Shown one piece after another: positions 7,189-64,000 of a DNA stretch of 64,000 nucleotides. Below the pieces are notes generated by a model. The model searched no databases, was not told where the DNA came from, and saw nothing but the letters and a program-made list of their open reading frames with translations. Each line of letters starts with the position of its first letter. Position 1 is the stretch's first letter. Both the position numbers and the translations under genes were made by a program. This stretch comes from Shewanella oneidensis MR-1 (GTDB taxonomy: Bacteria; Pseudomonadota; Gammaproteobacteria; Enterobacterales; Shewanellaceae): assembly GCF_000146165.2 (NCBI RefSeq), contig NC_004347.2, positions 3,194,778 to 3,258,777 on the forward strand, written 5' to 3'.

Positions 7189-9978
7189 TTGCAAGCCTCT
7201 CAGTCTATTTACAAAAGTCCAAACGATCACCGCCAATACCGTTATCTCCAGTTAGATAATGCGCTGCGGGTATTATTGGTGGAAGATTTGGATGCCAGTC
7301 AAGCCGCCGCTTCCATGGCGGTTGCAGTGGGGCATTTTGATGATCCTGCGGATAGACCGGGTATGGCCCATTTTTTAGAGCATATGCTCTTTTTAGGCAC
7401 CGAAAAATTCCCCGATTCAGGCGAGTATCACGCCTTTATCAATCAGCATGGTGGCAGCAATAATGCTTGGACAGGCACTGAGCATACCAACTTCTTTTTT
7501 ACCATCAACGCCGATGTATTTGCCGACTCCTTAGATAGGTTTAGCCAATTCTTTATCGCGCCCAAATTTGACTTAGAACTAGTAGATAGAGAACGCCAAG
7601 CCATTGAATCTGAATTTAGTTTAAAGCTGAAAGACGATATTCGCCGCACCTATCAAGTACTTAAAGAAACTGTCAACCAACAGCATCCATTCTCAAAATT
7701 CTCCGTGGGTAACTTAGTCACTTTAGGTGGTGAGCAGGCACAGGTTAGAAGTGAATTATTGACGTTTTATCAGACTCACTACAGTGCTAATTTAATGACT
7801 CTGTGTTTAGTCGCTCCGATGTCGTTAGATGCTTTGCAAGCACTTGCAATGCAATATTTCAGCGAGATCCGTAATTTAAACATCGTAAAACAGTACCCGC
7901 AGGTGCCGCTGTTTTCTGAAAATGAACTACTAAAGCAAATCAATATAGTCCCTCTAAAGGAACAAAAGCGCTTAAGCATCAGTTTTAATTTTCCTGGCAT
8001 TGACCACTATTACAAACGCAAACCGCTCACCTATATTAGCCATATTCTCGGCAATGAGAGTAAAGGCAGCCTGCTGTCGTACCTTAAAGAACAAGGTTTA
8101 GTGAATAATTTATCGGCAGGTGGTGGAGTCAATGGTTATAACTTCAAAGACTATAGTATTGGCCTGCAGCTCACCGACAAAGGCATGAGCAATATTGACG
8201 ACATTGTTTGTAGCTGTTTTGAGTACATTGAACTGATTAAAACTCAAGGACTTGAAGACTGGCGCTATTTGGAGCGAGCAAATCTGCTGAAAATGGCATT
8301 TCGCTATCAAGAACAAGTCAAATCTCTCGATTTGGCCAGCCACTTAAGCATCAATATGCACCACTATGAAGTGGAAGATCTGTTGTTTGGTGATTATCGC
8401 ATGGATGGCTTAGACGTAGCCGAAACCCTCGAATTATTGGCACTAATGACACCACAAAACATGCGGTTGCAGCTTATCGCCCAATCAGTGGCAACTGAAC
8501 GTAAAGCCAGCTGGTATCACACACCCTACCAAGTTTTGCCGATAAAGCCTGAGTCCCTCGCCCGCTGGCAAGTCACAGATATTCGCCCTGAACTCCAGTT
8601 ACCTGCAGCGAATCCCTTCATTGTGGCTGATTCTATTGCTCGCCCCGATAAAAGCGAAGTTGCCGTCCCAGTCATCGTTGCTGAATCAGCGGGATATCGT
8701 ATTTGGCATAAAAAAGACGATGAATTTAATGTTCCTAAAGGGCATATGTATTTATCACTCGACTCAGAGCAAGCAAGTAAAACACCAAAACATGCCGCCC
8801 TCACCCGCTTGTATGTCGAGATGTTGCTCGATTATCTGACCGAGCCTACTTATCAAGCGGAAGTCGCAGGATTGAGTTATAACATCTATCCACATCAAGG
8901 GGGCATAACACTGCATTTATCCGGTTTTACTGGTAATCAAGAAACGCTATTAGCTTTGCTTATCCATAAAGCAAGAGAACGTAATTTTACCGAAGAACGG
9001 TTTGCCTTAATCAAGTCTCAGTTGCTACGTAGTTGGCAAAATTTGGCTCAAGCTAAGCCAATTTCTCAGCTGTTTACCAGCCTGACGGCAACATTACAAA
9101 AGCGCAGTTACGAACCAGCCAGAATGGCGCAAGTACTCGAAGATATAACCTTAAATGACCTACACAACCATGTAAGGGCATTTTACGAGAAAATTTATCT
9201 TGAAGGGTTAATATACGGGGATTGGTTAGTCTCAGAGGCACAGGCACTTGGCAAACGTCTGGAACATATTTTATCGCTTGTCTCTAGTCCAAGCGCCGAA
9301 TCGACCCGAGAATTAATTAATTTAACCGGACAAGGCACACTTTTAAGAGAACTGGCAATAGATCATCAAGATAGCGCCATTATTGTGTATTACCAATCAG
9401 CAACTGCAACGCCAGAAAAAATGGCGCTTTTTAGCTTACTTAATCACACAATGTCTTCAACCTTCTTCCATGAACTGCGCACGGAAAAACAGTTAGGCTA
9501 TATGGTTGGCACTGGATATTTGCCGCTAAATCGACATCCTGGACTCATTTTTTATATTCAATCTCCCACCACAGGACCACTGTCTTTACTGGAAGCAATA
9601 GATGAGTTTATTGCTGATTTTAACTATGCCGTCATGCAAATCACCAATGAAGAATGGGAAAGTACAAAACAAGGTCTCATCAATCAAGTGATGGAACACG
9701 ATGCCAACCTTAAAACCCGAGGCCAGCGTTATTGGGTTAGTGTAGGTAATCGAGATTACCAGTTCAATCAAAGGGAATTGGTAGTCGCCGAAATCAGCAA
9801 ACTCACTCGCCCTGATTTACTCAAATTTATGATGCAAAAAATGCGTACTAAGCATAGTGATCGCTTAGTGCTTTTTAGTACAGGTTCAGCTCATACAGCT
9901 CAGTCAGCACTCACATCCGATAATATGATTACCGACCTTAAAGTGTTTAAACAAAACACTGAGAAGTTTAATTTTTAA
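7189..9978 (+). CDS. M16 (insulinase/pitrilysin-type) zinc metallopeptidase
   Basis: A 929-residue member of the insulin-degrading-enzyme family. The inverted zinc motif HFLEH is at residues 61-65, and the distal glutamate is in the ERQAIESEF segment near residue 135. Full-length architecture with the catalytic N-half, the inactive C-half and an RTEKQLGYMVGTGY substrate-site motif near residue 763. TTG at 7189 is the best start: GGAG at 7178-7181 lies seven bases upstream, and no better in-frame start is visible. Unlike E. coli pitrilysin it has no signal peptide, so it should be cytoplasmic. It degrades short to medium peptides. It opens the block inserted between sixA and fadJ; a link to the nearby peptide genes is only an inference from position. 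Confidence 0.92.
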   Translation: MQASQSIYKSPNDHRQYRYLQLDNALRVLLVEDLDASQAAASMAVAVGHFDDPADRPGMAHFLEHMLFLGTEKFPDSGEYHAFINQHGGSNNAWTGTEHTNFFFTINADVFADSLDRFSQFFIAPKFDLELVDRERQAIESEFSLKLKDDIRRTYQVLKETVNQQHPFSKFSVGNLVTLGGEQAQVRSELLTFYQTHYSANLMTLCLVAPMSLDALQALAMQYFSEIRNLNIVKQYPQVPLFSENELLKQINIVPLKEQKRLSISFNFPGIDHYYKRKPLTYISHILGNESKGSLLSYLKEQGLVNNLSAGGGVNGYNFKDYSIGLQLTDKGMSNIDDIVCSCFEYIELIKTQGLEDWRYLERANLLKMAFRYQEQVKSLDLASHLSINMHHYEVEDLLFGDYRMDGLDVAETLELLALMTPQNMRLQLIAQSVATERKASWYHTPYQVLPIKPESLARWQVTDIRPELQLPAANPFIVADSIARPDKSEVAVPVIVAESAGYRIWHKKDDEFNVPKGHMYLSLDSEQASKTPKHAALTRLYVEMLLDYLTEPTYQAEVAGLSYNIYPHQGGITLHLSGFTGNQETLLALLIHKARERNFTEERFALIKSQLLRSWQNLAQAKPISQLFTSLTATLQKRSYEPARMAQVLEDITLNDLHNHVRAFYEKIYLEGLIYGDWLVSEAQALGKRLEHILSLVSSPSAESTRELINLTGQGTLLRELAIDHQDSAIIVYYQSATATPEKMALFSLLNHTMSSTFFHELRTEKQLGYMVGTGYLPLNRHPGLIFYIQSPTTGPLSLLEAIDEFIADFNYAVMQITNEEWESTKQGLINQVMEHDANLKTRGQRYWVSVGNRDYQFNQRELVVAEISKLTRPDLLKFMMQKMRTKHSDRLVLFSTGSAHTAQSALTSDNMITDLKVFKQNTEKFNF

Positions 9979-10229
9979 TCAAAATCGTGATGCAAGCTCA
10001 GTAATCCAGCATTTGTTGTAAACAAACATAACCGCTGCTTTAATGCATTTATGTAGTGTTATCTATGGCCTAAGCATGGAAAATTAATGTAAAACACGCC
10101 TACCCCACCTATCTGATGGAAAACCACGCACGATCTGACTCCATCTATCTGCAATTAAAAGGAATTTTTACATTCTCACTTTTGACAAAAGCGGGTATTT
10201 CTGGAAAAGTGATGTAACACAATTGTTTC

Positions 10230-13200
10230 ATGGCATCCTCGGACAATACTAAGAACAACACTATGCCGAAAGTACTCTTAAAAATTTTCATCTACAGTTG
10301 CCTATGCCTAAGCACCTTGTATCCATCAGATTCTATTGCAATATATTCTAAGGAGCTCGACTCATCCATAGTTTTGAATTCAAACCTATTTGGAGTTCCG
10401 CAAGGTCTTTCACAAGGAACAGTAACCTCGATTGTTCAAGATAATGATGGATACCTATGGATAGGTACATTTAATGGTCTTAATCGCTTTGATGGAAGCA
10501 ACTTCAAATATTTTTTCGCTGATGGAACAAATTCAGGACTCCCTAGCTCTTTTATTCGAAGTTTACAAATTGATAAGAATGGCATTCTATATGTAGGAAC
10601 TGACAATGGCCTAGCTGTATATGATAAGAACAACGATTCCTTCATTAAATACGGAGCACCACTAGACAACACTCCAATCTGGAGTATAAATACCACTATT
10701 GAAACCTTAATTGTTGGCACCAACAACGCAATCATTGACATCCATGGAAAAGAGAACCATCTAGACCTATCGTCTAAAGGGATTGGTGAAATAAAAAAAT
10801 CTATCAAAATTGGTGATGATTATTTTTTAAAGGATTACTCCGGAAAATTATTTAAAATAAATCAAGAAAGTTCAATCTTAATAAAAGAAAACATTATCGA
10901 CATTGAACAAAAAAACAATAAATCTCTAATTATATCCACAAAAGATGGACTTTTTGAATATGATGGCGTTTTGATAAATAGAATTGACAACCGTTCTTTT
11001 TCACAGCTTGCAAAGAACAATAACACCATCTATGGCATCTCTGAAAACTACATTATTGACATCAACAATAAAAAAACGATAGGACTAATTTCAGCATTCA
11101 ACCCAGATAAAACCACCGTTTTTTATGCCAACAATAACTTTTTTACACTAGGAAGTGTAGATCAAGGTTTTTTTATCATAAAAAAACAAAATAACTTAGT
11201 CAAAAAAACCTCTCTAACAACTAATAGCACTTGGCATTTAAGTAAAAACTCTCAAGGTTTTCTAGTTTCATCAGAAGCTGAAAAAATAACCTTATTCAAC
11301 AATGAATTCAAAAAAATTAGAGATTACAACACATATACCACAGGATATAAATATGCATTACTCCATAAAAACCAGCTTTTATATGGAACAAGTAATGGAT
11401 TGTTTTTGGATAATAGTAATTCTGTAAAAAAACTTAGCAATGAAACCATATCAGCATTGTCAAGTAATGAAGATGATTCTATTTTATCAGCTGGAACCCC
11501 CGATGGTAAAATCTTAATAATAAAAAACTCAGAAATAATAAAAACTTTTAACACAGAAAGGAAGGAACCTATTTTTGATATTGAAACCATATCAGAAAAC
11601 TTGTTTTATATAGCCAGTCAGGGAGGACTTAGAAAGTATGACAACGGTCAGGAAACACTTATAAGCGAGCAACTGACATATAGTATTCAAAAAGATAGAA
11701 ATTATTTATTATTCGGCACATCAAAAGCCTTAATGCGTTATGATATAACTAATGAAAAAATAGACACCTTATTCTCAAAAAATAAAGAAATCTACTCAAT
11801 TGCAAGTGATACCAACTTTATTACTGTTTCATCATTAGGAGAGGTAATTATTTTTGATAAGAATAGTAAAACTTCTTATGCGCTGGGAACATCAAATGGG
11901 AGTCAATATGAATACAACTCACCTAGCGCAATAAAAATTAATGATTTTATATTGTTGGCAGGAATTAACGGGGTAAGCTTAGTATCTCCACAAGAAATTT
12001 CTGATTATATAAAAAGTCAAAAAGCAAACAAAACAGAAATATCTAAATTTTCCGTTTTCAACATGAGTCAAGAAAAAAATGGAAAGTATTTAAAAAAACC
12101 AATCGATGTAACAAAAGAAATAACACTTAAATATTCAGACTATCCATTTTCTTTTGATTTCATATCTCCTATGTCTGATGAATCATCTACTAACTACTAC
12201 TACAGAATGCTAGGGTTGTCTGATACTTGGATTTACTCTAATGGAACAAACTCCGCAACCTATACCAACCTATCTCCTGGCGAATACGTATTTCAGGTTT
12301 ACACCATAAATAATCTTTCAGGCGAAAAATCATCTGAGAGAGAAGTTAACGTAATAATTACGCCTCCTTGGTGGTCATCTACTCAAGCCAAAATATTTTA
12401 TTTTTTAATAACAATGTTTTTGTCCCTATTTATATTCAAAGCAATTCTTCGTAAAAGAGAAATTCAGCGTCAAATTGCTTTGAGTGAAGAACGACTAAAG
12501 CTATCTCTATGGGGCAGCGGTGATGAAATGTGGGACTGGGATATAGAAACGGGTAATATTTTCCGCTCGAATATTTGGGGTGCATTAGAGTTCCCACGAG
12601 ATGGACATCGCTCGGGTAATCGAGATGAAGAAAGTAATATACATCCCATGGATCAAGAACGCGTTAGAGAAGCACTAAATAAACACTTCTATGGTGAGAC
12701 AGATCATTTCGAAGCGGCATATAGAGTTAAAGGCAAAGATGATAGTTGGATATGGATTTTAGATAGGGCTAAAATTGTAGAACGAGATGATAAAGACAAC
12801 GCTCTACGAATGACTGGCACTATTAAAAATATCAGTCAATTTAAACAAAAAGAAGAACAATTAAGACTCTTCGAAAAAGCGATTGAAAATATTTCTGAAG
12901 GTATGTTTATTCTTGACAGTGAATACCGTTTCGTAGAAGTGAACGAGGCTTGCTGTAGAATATCACAACGAAATAGGTCTGATTTTATTGGCAATTTACT
13001 TACCTTTGAATTATATCCTGAATCCTTCTCAAATCAGATTCGTACTATGCTGAAACAGCAAGGTCGATGGGCAAGTGAAGTCGAAGCAAATCGAGGCGAT
13101 AACAGCCATTTTCATATGGAGCTCACGATTGACGCTATCTACGATGAATTAGGTGAATTGTCGCATTATGTGGGTGTTTTCTCTGATATATCAAGACGTA

Positions 13201-14531
13201 AACAGCAGGAAGAAGAACTTCGTAAACTCACCAACAATGATTTATTGACTGGCCTACCCAACCGGTCAAACCTACAAGTCACATTAGGAAACTTAGTCAA
13301 TAAAGAAATTAATCATGCATTAATGGTACTCGATTTAGATAATTTTAAGCGTATCAATGACTCATTAGGTCACCAAGTTGGTGATAAATTACTAAAACTT
13401 GTATCAGTCAGAATTAAATCTTCTGTACCTAAAAACACCAACATCTATCGTTTAGGAGGAGATGAGTTTGCCATTGTTCTCGATAAAACGTCGGATATTT
13501 TAGCCTCCGCCGCTATTGCGGGACGAATTGTTGATGCTTTTAACACTGTATATGAAATAGACAATGAACAACTTGTCTTAGGTGTGAGTGTTGGAATTGT
13601 ACTGTATCCAGATGATGAGCAGAATGAGCAAGCCTTACTCAGAAAAGCTGATATTGCCATGTACCATGCAAAATCTGCAGGCGGTAACTGTTACCAATTT
13701 TACTCTGAATCACTCAATGAACATGCAATTAAACAGCTTGAGACCGAAAATCTTATCCGTGAAGGCTTAAAAGAAGATTTATTTGAAGTTTATTATCAAC
13801 CCAAAGTCGATCTGAAACATGGTCATGTTGCTGGAATGGAAGCTTTAGTCAGATTAAATCATCCAACCTTAGGACTTATTCCACCGAATGATTTTATCCC
13901 TCTTGCAGAAGAGAATGGTCTGATTGTTGAAATAGGTGAAATTGTACTCAGAAAGGCCTGTTTTGCCGCGCAGAAGTGGCGTGAGCAAGGTCTATTTAAG
14001 GGCCGAGTCGCCGTCAATTTATCGTCACGACAATTTGCCCTACCCGATCTACAACAGCGGATAGAGTCAATTTTACGACTCACCCAATTACCTGCCTCTC
14101 ATTTAGAGCTAGAAATAACTGAAGGTACTGTTATTAAGCAACCAGAAATGGCTATTACTGTTATGCAGCAATTAGCCAAAATGGGTGTGAGCCTTGCTTT
14201 AGATGACTTTGGAACGGGTTATTCATCGCTTTCTTACTTAAAAAGATTCCCGATTCATACGCTGAAAATCGATAAAGCATTTGTTGACGATATTGATAAA
14301 TCCGACCGCGATTTAAAAATGGTCGATTCCATTATTACCATCGCCCACAATATGGGTCTATCCGTCGTTGGTGAGGGAGTTGAGCAAGCTGCACAGCTAA
14401 ATATCCTTCGAGCCCTAAATTGTGAAGAAATACAAGGTTACATCTTCAGTAAGGCCATTAATGAAGCAGAGTTTACCCTTTTACTACAGGAGGACCAGGC
14501 TAAATCCATCGCGATAAACAACACATTGTAA
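10230..14531 (+). CDS. Propeller/Y_Y_Y sensor with PAS, GGDEF and EAL domains
   Basis: A 1,433-residue membrane sensor that could both make and break cyclic-di-GMP. Order: export signal (hydrophobic stretch about residues 15-38), two-component-regulator beta-propeller in the periplasm (about 50-620; repeats such as DNDGYLWIGTFNGLNRFDG), Y_Y_Y domain (about 635-710), one transmembrane helix (about 718-740), two PAS domains (about 750-995), GGDEF (motif RLGGDEF near 1072) and EAL (EALVRLNH near 1202; DDFGTGYSS further on). Both catalytic motifs are intact; no RxxD inhibitory site is seen before GGDEF. ATG at 10263 is an alternative start. The first two-thirds (to about 12,460) is visibly much more AT-rich than the catalytic part. 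A secreted repeat peptide gene follows 106 bases downstream. Confidence 0.92.
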   Translation: MASSDNTKNNTMPKVLLKIFIYSCLCLSTLYPSDSIAIYSKELDSSIVLNSNLFGVPQGLSQGTVTSIVQDNDGYLWIGTFNGLNRFDGSNFKYFFADGTNSGLPSSFIRSLQIDKNGILYVGTDNGLAVYDKNNDSFIKYGAPLDNTPIWSINTTIETLIVGTNNAIIDIHGKENHLDLSSKGIGEIKKSIKIGDDYFLKDYSGKLFKINQESSILIKENIIDIEQKNNKSLIISTKDGLFEYDGVLINRIDNRSFSQLAKNNNTIYGISENYIIDINNKKTIGLISAFNPDKTTVFYANNNFFTLGSVDQGFFIIKKQNNLVKKTSLTTNSTWHLSKNSQGFLVSSEAEKITLFNNEFKKIRDYNTYTTGYKYALLHKNQLLYGTSNGLFLDNSNSVKKLSNETISALSSNEDDSILSAGTPDGKILIIKNSEIIKTFNTERKEPIFDIETISENLFYIASQGGLRKYDNGQETLISEQLTYSIQKDRNYLLFGTSKALMRYDITNEKIDTLFSKNKEIYSIASDTNFITVSSLGEVIIFDKNSKTSYALGTSNGSQYEYNSPSAIKINDFILLAGINGVSLVSPQEISDYIKSQKANKTEISKFSVFNMSQEKNGKYLKKPIDVTKEITLKYSDYPFSFDFISPMSDESSTNYYYRMLGLSDTWIYSNGTNSATYTNLSPGEYVFQVYTINNLSGEKSSEREVNVIITPPWWSSTQAKIFYFLITMFLSLFIFKAILRKREIQRQIALSEERLKLSLWGSGDEMWDWDIETGNIFRSNIWGALEFPRDGHRSGNRDEESNIHPMDQERVREALNKHFYGETDHFEAAYRVKGKDDSWIWILDRAKIVERDDKDNALRMTGTIKNISQFKQKEEQLRLFEKAIENISEGMFILDSEYRFVEVNEACCRISQRNRSDFIGNLLTFELYPESFSNQIRTMLKQQGRWASEVEANRGDNSHFHMELTIDAIYDELGELSHYVGVFSDISRRKQQEEELRKLTNNDLLTGLPNRSNLQVTLGNLVNKEINHALMVLDLDNFKRINDSLGHQVGDKLLKLVSVRIKSSVPKNTNIYRLGGDEFAIVLDKTSDILASAAIAGRIVDAFNTVYEIDNEQLVLGVSVGIVLYPDDEQNEQALLRKADIAMYHAKSAGGNCYQFYSESLNEHAIKQLETENLIREGLKEDLFEVYYQPKVDLKHGHVAGMEALVRLNHPTLGLIPPNDFIPLAEENGLIVEIGEIVLRKACFAAQKWREQGLFKGRVAVNLSSRQFALPDLQQRIESILRLTQLPASHLELEITEGTVIKQPEMAITVMQQLAKMGVSLALDDFGTGYSSLSYLKRFPIHTLKIDKAFVDDIDKSDRDLKMVDSIITIAHNMGLSVVGEGVEQAAQLNILRALNCEEIQGYIFSKAINEAEFTLLLQEDQAKSIAINNTL

Positions 14532-14564
14532 TCATTATATTACTCATCAGGGCAACTTGAAACA

Positions 14565-14581
14565 TTGGCACAACATCTGCA
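14565..14581 (+). promoter_or_regulatory. Candidate sigma-54 promoter for the repeat-peptide gene
   Basis: TTGGCACAACATCTGCA matches the -24/-12 consensus TGGCAC-N5-TTGC with one mismatch in the core (CTGC for TTGC) and the required ten bases between GG and GC. Transcription would start near 14592, leaving a leader of about 45 bases before the ATG at 14638. No enhancer-binding-protein site was identified. Confidence 0.6.
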
Positions 14582-14637
14582 TCAACTGTATCAGTGTCAA
14601 TAATAAATATTATCAACTACCCTGAGAGAGAAACATA

Positions 14638-15216
14638 ATGAAAGGAATCCTAACTGCTGTTGCACTAGTGTCATCAATTGGTTTTGTTGTAAATACTAAT
14701 GCAGTTGAAACAACTCAAAAAATTACAACATCCAATCAAGTTGTGACGTCTGAACAAAACACTGTAAGCGAGCAAGAAATTGCAGGTCACCCATATGTGA
14801 AGTTCAAGCCGTTTGAAGTCGCCGGTCACCCGTATGTGAAGTTCAAGCCTTTTGAAGTAGCTGGTCACCCATATGTGAAGTTCAAGCCATTTGAAGTCGC
14901 GGGTCACCCATATGTGAAGTTCAAGCCATTTGAAGTCGCGGGTCACCCATATGTGAAGTTCAAGCCATTTGAAGTCGCGGGTCACCCATATGTGAAGTTC
15001 AAGCCATTTGAAGTCGCGGGTCACCCATATGTGAAGTTCAAGCCATTTGAAGTCGCGGGTCACCCATATGTGAAGTTCAAGCCTTTTGAAGTAGCTGGTC
15101 ACCCATATGTGAAGTTCAAGCCTTTTGAAGTAGCTGGTCACCCATATGTGAAGTTCAAGCCATTTGAAGTCGCGGGTCACCCATATGTGAAATTTGCTAA
15201 TACAGAAATAGCGTAA
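14638..15216 (+). CDS. Exported tandem-repeat protein, ten 13-residue units
   Basis: I do not recognise this family. It has 192 residues: a signal peptide (about 1-22, basic start, hydrophobic core, likely cut after TNA), a 26-residue Thr/Gln/Ser-rich spacer, then ten perfect copies of AGHPYVKFKPFEV (residues 49-178, bases 14782-15171) and a last partial unit AGHPYVKF ending in ANTEIA. Each unit has His, Tyr, two Lys, three Phe, two Pro and one Glu, so it is aromatic and alternating, compatible with beta-strands or with cleavage into identical peptides. All ten units are identical as protein; every nucleotide difference is synonymous. A GAGAG Shine-Dalgarno (about 14624-14630) sets the start, with a sigma-54-like promoter upstream. 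No modifying enzyme, protease or exporter is adjacent. It could be a peptide precursor, a surface or amyloid-like protein, or a ligand for the upstream sensor; none is proven. Confidence 0.88.
   Translation: MKGILTAVALVSSIGFVVNTNAVETTQKITTSNQVVTSEQNTVSEQEIAGHPYVKFKPFEVAGHPYVKFKPFEVAGHPYVKFKPFEVAGHPYVKFKPFEVAGHPYVKFKPFEVAGHPYVKFKPFEVAGHPYVKFKPFEVAGHPYVKFKPFEVAGHPYVKFKPFEVAGHPYVKFKPFEVAGHPYVKFANTEIA
14782..15213 (+). repeat. 39-bp in-frame tandem repeat, ten full copies plus a partial
   Basis: Ten consecutive 39-bp units (14782-15171) followed by a truncated, diverged eleventh. Copies 4-7 are identical at every base. Copies 2, 8 and 9 share the CCT...GTA variant, while most others have CCA...GTC, so variants travel as linked blocks. 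This pattern indicates recent in-register duplication or gene conversion. All changes are at third codon positions. Confidence 0.97.
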
Positions 15217-15243
15217 TTAAACTTTAAATTGAGGTAATGCATC

Positions 15244-15360
15244 ATGATGAACTCACTCAAAAAAGCACTTGGTTTCGCAAAACCTGTTCGTAAAAAAGTA
15301 AAATTACCAGAAGGCTTAAACCATCTTGAAGTAATCCCTGCCAAGGGGTGGTGGAATTAA
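15244..15360 (+). CDS. 38-residue cationic peptide downstream of the repeat protein
   Basis: A short unrecognised ORF: it begins MMNSLKKALGFAKPVRKKV and ends in HLEVIPAKGWWN. The N-terminal half carries seven Lys/Arg and could form an amphipathic helix; the C-terminal half is more hydrophobic and ends in a Trp pair. A good Shine-Dalgarno, GAGG at 15231-15234, lies nine bases before ATG 15244, only 27 bases after the repeat-protein stop, and a strong terminator follows 68 bases after its own stop. This argues that it is a real gene in a two-gene operon. No signal peptide. It could be a membrane-active peptide, a modified peptide precursor or a small regulator; no evidence separates these. Confidence 0.72.
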   Translation: MMNSLKKALGFAKPVRKKVKLPEGLNHLEVIPAKGWWN

Positions 15361-15428
15361 TTTATAAGCCATTGGTAAAAGCTCGTATCGCCTAAAATAA
15401 TCTTACTAGCGCAGCGATATCGCAGACT

Positions 15429-15462
15429 AAACCAAAGGGAGCTACTGCTCCCTTTGGTTTTT
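15429..15462 (+). terminator. Terminator of the repeat-peptide operon
   Basis: A 13-bp GC-containing stem (AACCAAAGGGAGC paired with GCTCCCTTTGGTT) with a four-base TACT loop is followed by a T-run. It closes the repeat protein / small peptide unit. Confidence 0.92.
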
Positions 15463-15489
15463 TACAGCTCCTATGACTAACAATCAAAA

Positions 15490-15699
15490 TCAAGCTGCAA
15501 TGTAGCAGTCATGGCTATGGAGGCTCCTTCTTAAGGCAATACGTTTGTGGGTGGAAAACAAGGGAAAAGCCATGGGGCCAAGGATAAAACCAAGCACCGT
15601 CCAGTATTTTACTGAAAGCCCTGCCCTAAAAGCCGCATATCCAAAACACCATGCACAGAAAAACGATAGCGCAACCAACATATAAGCAACCAATCCCAC
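15490..15699 (-). CDS. Small membrane protein, unknown function
   Basis: A 69-residue ORF with two hydrophobic segments (about residues 3-23 and 30-48, the second with a FILGPMAFPLF glycine-proline turn) and a basic, His-containing C-terminus. The LGPMAFPLF-like ending of the second helix resembles many small inner-membrane proteins of Shewanella, but I cannot name the family. It lies between the repeat-peptide operon terminator and fadJ, on the opposite strand to the peptides, and seems to be a single-gene unit. Confidence 0.55.
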   Translation of the reverse strand: MGLVAYMLVALSFFCAWCFGYAAFRAGLSVKYWTVLGFILGPMAFPLFSTHKRIALRRSLHSHDCYIAA

Positions 15700-15869
15700 C
15701 GCAAACCTCTTTATTCGCCAAATATAAATACAAAACAGCTAAGCCTATCTGCTTTTTTGTGCAGTCCGAATGCCTCAAGGCGGTAATCTTTCATAAAAGA
15801 GATCGAATAATACAAGATATCTAGACTAGATATGAGTGTTTTTTAGGCAAAAATTAGCCTGAGGGCAAT

Positions 15870-15900
15870 AAAAAAGCGGCATTGAATTGCCGCTTTTTTG
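15870..15900 (-). terminator. Terminator of the fadIJ operon
   Basis: A 12-bp stem (15870-15881 with 15888-15899) has a six-base loop and A/T runs on both sides; it begins 19 bases after the fadJ stop on the minus strand. Confidence 0.88.
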
Positions 15901-15918
15901 ACCAAGGATATCTAAGTG

Positions 15919-18042
15919 TTAGAAGAAGCGAGCTTTTTCTGCCGCCATAGCCTTAAGCCGTTGGCAAGGCTCAAATCGATCGCCATATTGTGTTTGATAA
16001 CGTTCAAGTATTTTGACTAAGTTATCCGCGCCTAAAGTATCGATATAATGGAATGGTCCACCCAAGAATGGTGGGAAGCCGATGCCAAAGATAGCGCCAA
16101 TATCACCATCGCGCGGCGAGGCAATAATGCCTGCATCTAAGCAGCGCACTGCTTCATTCAGCATTTGCACTACACAGCGTTCCGCTACCGCGCTCATTTC
16201 TTTATCGACACCAGGCTTGATACCTAATACGCCATACACGGTTTCATCCACAGCTTTTTTCTTGCTGGCAGCGCCATACTGATAGAAACCTTTGCCATTT
16301 TTACGACCTTTTCTATCGTCGCTTAATAGCTTGTCGAAGGCTGCTGGTGCTTTAAAGCGTTCACCAAGCTCTTTTTCAAGAATTGGAGAGATCTTAGCGC
16401 CCACATCAATACCGACTTCATCGAGTAAGGTAATTGGGCCAACGGGGAAACCAAACTTCACTAACGCTTTATCGAGATGTTCAACACTTTGCCCTTCTAG
16501 CAGCAATTGTGCGGCTTCGTTCATATAAAGCGCGAGGATGCGGTTAACATAAAACCCCGCACCGTCTTGTACCACAATTGGCGTTTTACCCTGTTTACGG
16601 GCAAAGGCGACTGTGGTGGCAATGGTTTCTGGTGAGGTTTTAGCGTGGGCAATCACTTCCACCAGCGGCATTTTTTCTACCGGTGAGAAGTAATGTAAGC
16701 CAATCACATTTTCAGGACGGCTTGCCGCTTGTGCAATTTGACCAATGGGTAACGATGAGGTGTTAGACGCAAAAATCGTGTGCTCACCGCATTCACGCTC
16801 AATATCTTTAACCATTTGATGTTTAAGCGCTAAATCCTCAAATACCGCTTCAACAACAATATCGGCATCCTTAACACCTTTATATTCGGTCGTCGTTGTC
16901 ATCAGCGCCATTAAATTGTCGCGAGCGGCTGGCGTCATATGACGACGTTTCACGCCTTTATCCAATAACTTATAGGCGTAAGAAAGCGCGTTGCTTAAGC
17001 CCTTTTCGTTAATGTCTTTTACTCGCGCAGGAATTTTAGCCTTAGTCGTAGTGACAGAGGCAATACCACCTCCCATCAAACCGCCACCTAAGATCACGGC
17101 TTTTTTGACTTTACGTGGCGTTGCACCTTCGGCGCCGGTTTCTTTCTTCATCTCTGTAGTTGCAAAGAAAATACTGCGCAGCGCTTCAGATTCTTTCGAC
17201 ACCACCAGCTCAGCAAAATGGCTGGCTTCGACTTCCAGTCCCTTCTGCATACCTTTGGCAATACCTTGGCGCACACAATCAATAATCTTTGCTGGCGCTG
17301 GGTAGTTACCTTGGGTTTTCTTAGCAACTTGCTTAGCCGCTTGATCGAAAATAATGTTGCGACCAAAGCCAGTACCTTCAAGCAATTGGTTTACTAGCGA
17401 TTTTTTAACTGGCTTAGCTATTTGTTTACCCGCGAGCGCCATCTCCACTGCGGTTTGCAGCAAAATCGTTTGTGGCACCACATCGTTAACTAAGCCCATC
17501 TTTAACGCTTGTTTCGGGCGAATTTGTTTACCCGTCAACATCATATCCAGCGCAGTGGTAATCCCCACCAAGCGTGGCAAACGCTGGGTACCACCGCCAC
17601 CGGGTAATAAACCGAGCTGCACTTCAGGTACGCCCAGCATGGTCTTGCCATCATCACTGCACACACGTTGATGGCAGGCAAGCGCTAGCTCTAAACCGCC
17701 GCCCAAGCAAGCACCATGAATTGCAGCGACCACAGGGATGTTTAATGCTTCCAACTCGTTAAACACCACATGCCCTTGCTGGGATAACGCTTTGGCATCG
17801 CCCGCCGTTTGGCAAGCATCGAGCATAGAGATATCGGCACCGGCAACAAATGAATCTTTTTTGCCCGAAATCAGCACTAGGCCACGGATACTCGAATCGC
17901 GTTTAATCTCAGACAGGATCTCACTGATCTCAGGGCCAAACTCCGCCTTGAGGGTATTCATGGTTTCGCCAGGTACGTCCATGGTTAAAATGGCGATACC
18001 GTCTTCACGGCGAGTTAAATTAAATGTTTTTCCCACCGCCAT
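15919..18042 (-). CDS. fadJ: Fatty acid oxidation complex alpha subunit FadJ
   Basis: A bifunctional enoyl-CoA hydratase / 3-hydroxyacyl-CoA dehydrogenase of beta-oxidation, partner of FadI. At 707 residues it has the normal length. The N-terminal crotonase domain shows [15 protein letters not shown] and [16 protein letters not shown]; the NAD-binding dehydrogenase domain starts near residue 315 with the [10 protein letters not shown] loop and includes the conserved [15 protein letters not shown] segment. Its ATG overlaps the fadI TAA by one base (TAATG), indicating translational coupling. The fadJ rather than fadB identity rests on pairing with fadI and on the sixA-fadJ-fadI-fadL order shared with E. 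coli. Expected to be repressed by FadR through the site at 19445. Confidence 0.96.
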
Positions 18043-20577: not shown

Positions 20578-20690
20578 AGTAGAGCCAAAAATCAGTCCCA
20601 TAGTCTATGTGCTTCGGTAGCGAACAAACTAACGTTAAGTTAAATAAATGGCGTTAAGTTAAATAAATGGCTTTAAATGAGTGACTTTGA

Positions 20691-21674
20691 ATGAATGACA
20701 GTGCGCTAAACGCATCCCTAAATAATGATGTTGTACAACATGGCTTACCTCTTAATGGTTTGCCCTTGTTTGCCGATGGGTTGCATTTAACCGAGAAGGA
20801 ACTGCTCGCCTGCCAGACGATTGCGCGGGCCATTCCTGAGCGTCACAGCCGAGCACGCGCCAATCTGGCGGGTCATCGCAGCAGTCTAATCAAGGGCCGT
20901 GGCATGGAGTTTGCCGAAGTGCGCCATTACCAGCAAGGTGACGATGTCCGCACAATTGATTGGCGTGTTACCGCACGCACAGGGCAAACCCACACCAAAC
21001 TCTTTATCGAAGAGCGCGAGCGCCCTATTCTGCTGCTGCTCGATTTAAGCCAGAGTCTGTATTTTGGCTCGAGTTTGCTGTTACAGTCAGTTCAAGCTGG
21101 GCATCTCGCCACCACGCTTGGTTGGAATGCTATCAATCACGGCGATAGGCTCGGGGCCTTAATCGCCTGTGAGTCGGAGCATCTTGAATTAAAGCCCCGC
21201 AGTCGAAGGCAAGGTATTTTGCAGCTGATCTCAGGACTATGCCGAGTGCACGAGCAGCAACTCAATCAACTTGGCAGTCATCCGCGCGATCCAGACCATA
21301 TATTGCGTGCCTGCCAGCGTTTGCAACGTATCGCTAAGCCCGGCTCATTGATTTGGATTATCACCGATGGCAGCCATTTTACACCGCAATGTATCGCGCC
21401 GCTGACAGAGCTCAAGCGCCATTGCGATATTGGCGCGTATTTGATAACTGACCCTTTAAGGCAAGGTAGCCTGAACTTACCTAAACAGTTCAGTTTACCT
21501 GTCCGAGATGCAGAGCAAGACTTAGTGTTGACTCACCACAGCTATCAGGCATGGCTCGCGCTGCAACACCAGCAGCAGAATGACTTTATCGCCATGATGC
21601 AAAAGCTAAGAGTACACACCCAATTTATCGATGCAGGCCGCCCCCTTGCAGAGCAATTAGCATTACTGCAATAG
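20691..21674 (+). CDS. DUF58 domain protein of the Bat operon
   Basis: A 327-residue cytoplasmic protein with the DUF58 signature GRGMEFAEVRHYQQGDDVRTIDWRV-type segment at about residues 70-95 (arginine-rich, ending in DW) and a degenerate VWA fold with a DLSQS MIDAS-like motif near residue 120. Such proteins always accompany MoxR ATPases and are thought to link them to the membrane VWA proteins; molecular activity is unknown. The gap of 113 bases after moxR is filled with a short near-repeat (GTTAAGTTAAATAAATGGC). Confidence 0.9.
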   Translation: MNDSALNASLNNDVVQHGLPLNGLPLFADGLHLTEKELLACQTIARAIPERHSRARANLAGHRSSLIKGRGMEFAEVRHYQQGDDVRTIDWRVTARTGQTHTKLFIEERERPILLLLDLSQSLYFGSSLLLQSVQAGHLATTLGWNAINHGDRLGALIACESEHLELKPRSRRQGILQLISGLCRVHEQQLNQLGSHPRDPDHILRACQRLQRIAKPGSLIWIITDGSHFTPQCIAPLTELKRHCDIGAYLITDPLRQGSLNLPKQFSLPVRDAEQDLVLTHHSYQAWLALQHQQQNDFIAMMQKLRVHTQFIDAGRPLAEQLALLQ

Positions 21675-63648: not shown

Positions 63649-63688
63649 TTGTGTTCAACTAACATTAGCGATTAACATTAGTTGAGGT

Positions 63689-63764
63689 GGTATCCCCTAG
63701 GGGATTCGAACCCCTGTTACCGCCGTGAAAGGGCGGTGTCCTAGGCCTCTAGACGAAGGGGACA
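63689..63764 (-). tRNA. tRNA-Glu (anticodon UUC), copy 1
   Basis: A 76-base gene including CCA. Minus-strand sequence starts GTCCCCTTCGTCTAGAGGCC and ends in GGGGATACCA; the acceptor stem GTCCCC/GGGGAT closes with a terminal G-U. Anticodon arm CCGCC-CTTTCAC-GGCGG gives UUC, glutamate. D-loop and the GTTCGAATC T-loop are typical. Confidence 0.97.
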
Positions 63765-63838
63765 CAAGGACTTATGTTTTTCCTCATAACTGAGGTCTTG
63801 CTATTTATCTCAAACAACTCGTTAGTTATTTGGGATGC

Positions 63839-63862
63839 ACTCTATCTTATTAGGGATAGAGT
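63839..63862. other. Hairpin between the tRNA-Glu copies
   Basis: ACTCTATC (63839-63846) pairs with GATAGAGT (63855-63862), lying directly at the CCA end of the upstream-transcribed copy. It may guide processing of the tandem precursor; it is not followed by a T-run on the minus strand. Confidence 0.55.
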
Positions 63863-63937
63863 GGTATCCCCTAGGGGATTCGAACCCCTGTTACCGCCGT
63901 GAAAGGGCGGTGTCCTAGGCCTCTAGACGAAGGGGAC
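63862..63937 (-). tRNA. tRNA-Glu (anticodon UUC), copy 2
   Basis: Identical in sequence to the copy at 63689-63764, including CCA. The following 63 bases to the window end are also identical to the sequence after copy 1, so the repeat unit is 173 bases and a further copy may lie outside the window. Confidence 0.97.
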
Positions 63938-64000
63938 ACAAGGACTTATGTTTTTCCTCATAACTGAGGTCTTGCTATTTATCTCAAACAACTCGTTAGT

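Follow-up and report, generated by a model that had tools for sequence, protein, structure and literature searches.

A tandem-repeat gene of Shewanella encodes a candidate peptide ligand whose core diversifies together with the periplasmic domain of a neighbouring c-di-GMP receptor

Our finding that, in Shewanella, the similarity of a receptor's periplasmic propeller domain tracks the short core of a peptide repeated in the adjoining gene, rather than the relatedness of the species, leads us to regard this repeat gene as fairly probably a multi-copy precursor, or a multivalent display, of a pheromone-like and self-specific peptide ligand for the c-di-GMP receptor encoded upstream; this is a reading of sequences. 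The gene was noticed in a stretch of 64,000 nucleotides of Shewanella oneidensis MR-1 (NC_004347.2, positions 3,194,778 to 3,258,777), hereafter 'the window', in which it occupies positions 14638..15216 (+). ORF translation, TRF and comparison of the units define a secreted-type precursor of 192 residues, consisting of a hydrophobic N-terminus MKGILTAVALVSSIGFVVNTNA read by eye as a putative signal peptide (14638..14703), a spacer of 26 residues, ten exact copies of AGHPYVKFKPFEV (14782..15171), each made up of the core AGHPYVKF and the linker KPFEV, and a last, incomplete unit AGHPYVKF (15172-15195) which is followed by the tail ANTEIA (unit and tail together 15172..15213). This is the layout that a preliminary description of the DNA had given. 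TRF reports a period of 39, 10.4 copies and a score of 730. Among the ten copies 4 of 39 nucleotides vary, all of them at synonymous third positions, and the DNA pattern of the unit occurs ten times in the genome, every time inside this array. Other repeats of the window are two tandem tRNA-Glu(TTC) genes within a 174-bp repeat (63687-64000), and short tandem repeats of 19 and 14 bp (20633-20699).

The same description had recognised no family for the protein, and we likewise obtained no credible match in Pfam or NCBIfam. A match to EPTP (Pfam PF03736; 36 bits, cut-off 21) was discarded as a repeat artefact: no stretch passes singly, and the best one spans 16 of 42 profile positions, EPTP repeats being about 42 positions long. 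The remaining weak Pfam matches were discarded as artefacts of the same kind, and Rfam gives no family in window positions 9900-16000. A large protein search returned a single match, a protein of 123 residues, and relatives were sought by whole-genome searches instead.

The repeat gene belongs to a cassette, formed by the receptor gene, the repeat gene behind a predicted sigma54-type promoter, and a gene for a peptide of 38 residues ending in WW, which is present in 119 of 129 Shewanella genomes as counted by matches to the 38-residue peptide. The repeat protein itself was found in 33 of 60 genomes searched, all of one genus, and the 38-residue peptide in 34 of the same 60. A class-wide search yielded the window's own genome as sole match among 369, while an order-wide search matched 38 of 394 genomes, spread over 5 of 114 genera; carriers of the cassette include Parashewanella and Paraferrimonas haliotis besides Shewanella. 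Eight of the 38 order-level matches fall outside the genus, and the loci of seven were examined, a match in G173 (E 0.007) being left out of the locus comparison. Peptidase and receptor genes occur in every one of the seven, along with a small secreted peptide and the WW peptide; in six of them fadJ comes next, and L314 breaks off at a contig edge.

Within the genus, the receptor gene lies upstream on the same strand in all 102 loci that hold both it and the 38-residue gene, and the repeat gene stands between the two wherever it was read. An M16 peptidase gene precedes the receptor in 94 of these loci (seven of the remaining eight stop at a contig edge), and fadJ comes afterwards in 92 (among the ten exceptions one stops at a contig edge, and nine lack fadJ in the 3-10 kb fetched). 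For six matches to the 38-residue peptide no locus was retrieved; five (G065, G071, G102, G125, G144) lie near a contig edge, and the sixth (G140) is weak and comes from a genome that is half complete. Both the sensor and the other small peptide, pointed out early on as neighbours, are thus members of a conserved unit, whereas the accompanying proposal of a block inserted in an otherwise conserved gene order fails within the genus, given the constancy of receptor (102/102), peptidase (94) and fadJ (92). In four genomes (G001, G129, G136, G138) the peptidase gene stands beside fadJ, and receptor and repeat gene are absent from the 10-11 kb fetched. Three others without the 38-residue gene (G018, G143, G146) retain the receptor together with another small secreted peptide, and a further three (G126, G131, G142) end at a contig edge. 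An ORF of 69 residues behind fadJ (15490-15699, minus strand), resembling a membrane protein, was weighed as a possible fourth member and rejected, a homologue lying behind fadJ in G129, where the block was not found; it is probably a tail gene of fadIJ. Homologues of this ORF exist in 95 of the 118 loci covered, among them those of families f15 and f20 and of G129.

This gene order also bears on the thought that the repeat protein could be a multi-core RiPP precursor, the units of which are enzymatically modified. A signal or leader followed by many identical cores would suit such a precursor, but among the conserved neighbours at the locus no modifying enzyme was recognised, and no maturase-like gene was seen in the conserved block. 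The nearest enzyme genes are those for the M16 peptidase, which has a PqqF-like C-terminal domain, and for fatty-acid enzymes, and the peptidase gene is also present in genomes devoid of the receptor block. We give this possibility next to no probability.

Each species carries its own unit, homogenised inside the gene around a core (A)GxPx[VI][KR][FVY]. Units could be read from 108 genomes and comprise 13 residues in 100, 9 in four, 15 in three and 14 in one; copy number ranges from 3 to 34 (median 11), low values being minima since some arrays are interrupted by contig edges or N. The mean identity among units inside one gene is 0.95, and the Shewanella set contains 68 different 8-residue cores, with AGAPNVKF and AAAPNVRF occurring in close relatives of S. 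oneidensis. Units generally show the pattern A-G-x-P-x-[VI]-[KR]-[FVLY] and, after it, a linker of 1 to 7 residues, where the counts of P and K/R are partly circular because the pattern used to read the units itself requires P-x-[VIFLY]-[KR]. In 105 of 108 species the reading frame ends in Ala.

The same slot is filled by quite different forms. In family f20, from outside the genus, the units are 12 to 19 residues long, with the core closing the protein; the cores, with copies counted by eye, are HIPIRF (4), RIPVRF (5), RVIIRY (4) and RIQIRI (7), so that proline is absent from two of four units (RVIIRY, RIQIRI). In family f15 the slot is taken by a short secreted peptide, present in one copy and lacking the core. 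Five of 93 full-length receptors were left without a unit by our script (G022, G008b, G080, G084, G130), and the core is present by eye beside all five: G130 has one copy only, AGIPWVKC, and G080 has three identical GFPTIKV cores amid linkers that are decayed and unequal in length. Finally, G018, G143 and G146 have a single-copy secreted peptide of 59 residues with a core-like C-terminus (FPIVVF, IPIVIF or FPIVIF) and no WW peptide found, the receptor of G146 being interrupted. One-copy forms, and identical cores embedded in decayed linkers, imply that conservation applies to the short core rather than to the array; judging by the single-copy forms, repetition seems dispensable.

These variants are also pertinent to the two readings initially offered for the array, namely that one peptide is released in many copies, or that a repetitive beta-structure forms at the cell surface. 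Unit lengths of 9-15 residues, a single core, decayed linkers and single-copy 59-residue forms are accommodated better by a short linear ligand than by a structure that depends on repetition, so that the comparison favours a peptide which would be released in many copies. We therefore consider it quite improbable that the repeats build a beta-rich fibre of structural or adhesive function at the surface, which the adjoining c-di-GMP sensor monitors or regulates. The alternating composition of the array would agree with a fibre, as would the short strands predicted for most units by a single-sequence model, and proteins of c-di-GMP metabolism often control the matrix. However, the confidence of that model is low (pLDDT 49), the array is regular in the window while relatives have one copy or three irregular copies in the same slot, the slot likewise admits units of 9 to 15 residues, and nothing in a structural role would lead one to expect the core to track the propeller.

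Expression of the repeat gene may be under the control of a sigma54-type -24/-12 element, TGGCACAACATCTGCA, located by pattern match 72 bp before the gene (14566..14581, +). The pattern TGGCA[CT]-N6-TGC[AT], which we take to be a form of the sigma54 promoter consensus, occurs 16-109 bp upstream of the assigned start of the repeat gene in 94 of 97 species tested, whereas 0.032 would be expected by chance per 300 nt per strand. Starts that the script placed too far upstream seem to account for two of the three misses, as well as for the shortest distance. A slightly looser form of the pattern also precedes the three 59-residue genes, those of Paraferrimonas and Parashewanella, two of three f15 genes and two of four f20 genes. 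The gene thus appears to belong to a class with a conserved sigma54-type element, a predicted promoter, at a similar upstream place.

Downstream lies the gene for the 38-residue peptide, MMNSLKKALGFAKPVRKKVKLPEGLNHLEVIPAKGWWN (15244..15360, +), in which we see no signal peptide and of which 12 positions are invariant across 18 aligned rows. It probably acts inside the cell and, as a guess, perhaps on the conserved cytosolic half of the receptor. Two adjacent genes for WW peptides, the second more divergent, lie behind the repeat gene in L085, L097, L099, L101 and others. Cationic and rich in Trp, the peptide resembles leaderless bacteriocins in composition, and the rapid allelic diversification at the locus would suit a cassette for antagonism or kin exclusion, in which either this peptide or the repeat harms non-kin and the sensor side provides recognition or immunity. 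We nevertheless rate this as very improbable: a polymorphic toxin would not show the strong conservation that the 38-residue peptide has throughout the genus, and variability on the partner's side resides in a c-di-GMP enzyme, which is not a known immunity protein.

The receptor, of 1433 residues (10230..14531, +), was assigned by Pfam (Reg_prop, Y_Y_Y, PAS, GGDEF, EAL) and gene order. It comprises a signal sequence, a periplasmic domain of two beta-propellers and Y_Y_Y (residues 38-724; 10341..12401, +), which is the putative ligand-binding domain, a transmembrane segment, and a cytosolic PAS-PAS-GGDEF-EAL output (12633..14453, +), in which the GGDEF, EAL and DDFGTG motifs are all present. 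Pfam finds neither a TPR nor a kinase domain in it, unlike in RRNPP, ComP or AgrC receptors. Across species the periplasmic propeller is hypervariable and the cytosolic half conserved. Beside the repeat gene, the receptor ORF falls short of full length on a continuing contig in G009, G063, G108, G118, G120 and G148, which may reflect decay, gaps or errors of sequencing.

Joint diversification of core and propeller was assessed in 88 genomes with both parts (of the 93 with full-length receptors), 83 of them with the peptidase. A partial Mantel test of core against propeller, given cytosolic domain and peptidase, yields r 0.21 (p 0.0005); since the reverse control, core against cytosol given propeller, yields 0.21 as well, this test alone is a weak one. 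In 37 disjoint sister pairs, core similarity correlates with that of the propeller at rho 0.70 and with that of the cytosolic part at 0.34. The nearest genome has an identical core in 38 of 88 cases if chosen by propeller, in 19 of 88 by cytosol and in 19 of 83 by peptidase, and for the 62 genomes whose nearest neighbours differ, the core of the propeller neighbour is the better match in 43, equal in 12 and worse in 7. Triplets were then formed such that a genome with a different core is at least as close by cytosolic domain as one with the same core: in 49 of 53 of these (20 focal genomes) the propeller resembles that of the same-core genome more closely, as it does in 106 of 132 (14 focal genomes) when closeness is judged by the peptidase. 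Permutation of cores inside close clusters (167 pairs) gives rho 0.57 against a null maximum of 0.41 (p 0.0002), with 0.11 for core against cytosol in the same pairs. Propeller identity is at least 0.5 in all 25 close same-core pairs, versus 27 of 142 close different-core pairs, and in close pairs propeller similarity correlates more strongly with the core, after controlling for the linker (r 0.62), than with the linker after controlling for the core (r 0.32). Thus G010 and G104, which have the core AGSPHIKF in common and different linkers, are each other's best propeller match at 0.40, above their identity to the nearest cytosolic relatives (0.28 and 0.25). The apparent exception of G116 and G064, with different consensus cores and a propeller identity of 0.97, is misleading because both genes mix two unit types. 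At the level of residues, comparison of receptor columns with core positions revealed no convincing cluster of covariation after controlling for overall propeller identity.

A paralogous propeller-PAS-GGDEF-EAL protein of the same genome (Reg_prop type, 1515 residues; G000 C1 341460-346007, minus strand; L320 961-5508) served as control sensor. In nine genomes its periplasmic domain is not hypervariable, with identities of 81-93% for the seven close genomes and 72-73% for the two that are more distant, broadly following relatedness. The periplasmic domain of the window's receptor has 36-75% identity to the same relatives: 70% in G141, 66 and 75% in the two pieces of the interrupted G118 receptor, 60% in G069 and 59% in G002, all four with core HPYVKF; 57% in G079 and 54% in G119, with HPAVKF; and 38, 37 and 36% in G077, G015 and G024, with other cores. 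G077 is the nearest species by paralogue, yet among the worst by receptor, and the two genomes most distant by paralogue have the same core and surpass G077 by receptor. For a comparison of dS, 27 pairs were picked by hand. In the 17 with different cores, propeller dS is at least 1.5 and reaches saturation. The cytosolic stretch that separates propeller and repeat gene has a dS of 0.15-0.80, or 0.5-3 times the value of the peptidase, and this low dS implies that the coupling is not due to a single tract of recombination. Matched alleles of propeller and core seem to be selected. In the 10 same-core pairs propeller dS is 0.01 to 3.2, and 1.0-3.2 in four, so that propellers also diverge without change of core.

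Such a mosaic is of importance for the alternative of an autocrine, periplasmic self-ligand, which would report the state of export or envelope to the sensor of the same cell, and in which co-diversification reflects compensatory drift of touching partners. An export signal alone is evident, with no outer-membrane exporter seen in the conserved block, and co-diversification requires contact and not signalling from cell to cell. Drift, however, is expected along the species tree, whereas close species often differ strongly here and more distant ones carry similar alleles, in a mosaic of replacement; mosaic replacement by alleles that cut across relatedness is a feature of polymorphic pheromone loci. 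We thus hold an autocrine role to be unlikely.

Returning to the pheromone-like ligand, the precursor gene adjoins the receptor gene, export is predicted from the signal-like N-terminus, and the putative ligand and the sensor domain diversify together beyond species distance. Less favourable to this reading are the modest partial Mantel effects, the propellers that diverge under an unchanged core, the want of a convincing covariation at residue level, a conserved block in which neither a dedicated protease nor an outer-membrane exporter was seen, the f15 peptides and the two f20 units that depart from the core pattern, and the six receptor ORFs short of full length. It is tempting to outline how the system might work. 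Expressed from the sigma54-type promoter, the precursor would be exported by Sec to the periplasm and perhaps beyond the outer membrane, and the core AGHPYVKF would be freed, probably by proteolysis, with AGHPYVKF itself, GHPYVKFKPFEVA, the 13-mer or the whole array as candidate forms of the ligand. The freed core would bind the periplasmic double propeller and the occupied propeller would set the activity of the cytosolic GGDEF-EAL part, and hence c-di-GMP, in one direction or the other. Copy number of the array would tune dose or avidity. With core and propeller diversifying jointly, each species or group would answer to its own peptide. Whether this constitutes a Gram-negative family of ribosomal, species-specific pheromones that act between cells through double-propeller receptors on c-di-GMP, with alleles replaced together so as to form communication groups, we consider an evenly balanced question.

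Our searches of a library of open-licence papers yielded no description of the locus; a single mention of SO3084 there concerns unexplained transposon insertions, and this number could not be tied to the repeat gene. Comparison with known systems is instructive. BT4663-like sensors have a kinase/AraC-type output. The Shewanella receptor is like the Bacteroides hybrid two-component protein BT4663 (ligand heparin/heparan sulphate according to the title of PDB 4a2l) in its periplasmic domain of double propeller and Y_Y_Y, but it has GGDEF-EAL in place of histidine kinase, receiver and AraC output, and our evidence points to a gene-encoded peptide as its partner. As an analogy only, the repeat gene also recalls precursors known from eukaryotes: those of fungal alpha-factor contain tandem pheromone units with spacers and diversify with their receptor, a GPCR. 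In ComQXPA and agr, close strains or species have different specificities, and precursor and receptor sensor region are polymorphic; the output is a histidine kinase, the peptide is modified, the precursor single-copy and the host Gram-positive. Precursor and sensor region are likewise polymorphic in Shewanella, with close species differing, but the output is GGDEF-EAL, the precursor multi-copy and the host Gram-negative. Published accounts treat ComQXPA and agr as polymorphic receptor-peptide pairs defining pherotypes (PMC4008528, PMC4408185), and describe tandemly duplicated propeptides for the Rap-Phr/RRNPPA pheromones of Bacillota (PMC11343458, PMC5199041). Rap-Phr shares with the Shewanella cassette a secreted precursor with several copies of a short peptide and a cognate receptor, the specificities of which diverge together, but its receptors are intracellular and Gram-positive, whereas that of Shewanella is a membrane-spanning periplasmic double propeller with PAS-GGDEF-EAL in a Gram-negative host; moreover, up to 34 copies were counted in Shewanella, and Pfam gives no domain in common. 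In receptor type, output and host group the Shewanella cassette stands apart from both the Rap-Phr and the ComQXPA systems.

The proposed pairing of peptide and receptor is of a kind best known from Gram-positive bacteria, and a 2016 review assigns small metabolites as quorum signals to Gram-negative and peptides to Gram-positive bacteria (PMC5007282). The tandem-repeat gene, uniform within species and diverging between them, together with about 90 natural ligand-receptor pairs, offers material for deciphering a specificity code of protein-peptide recognition, and poses the testable question of whether each Shewanella recognises its own peptide. If our reading is true, Shewanella would possess a gene-encoded Gram-negative peptide signal with a self-specific receptor that acts directly on c-di-GMP, the second messenger of biofilm formation and motility, and neighbouring species or strains would fall into different communication groups.
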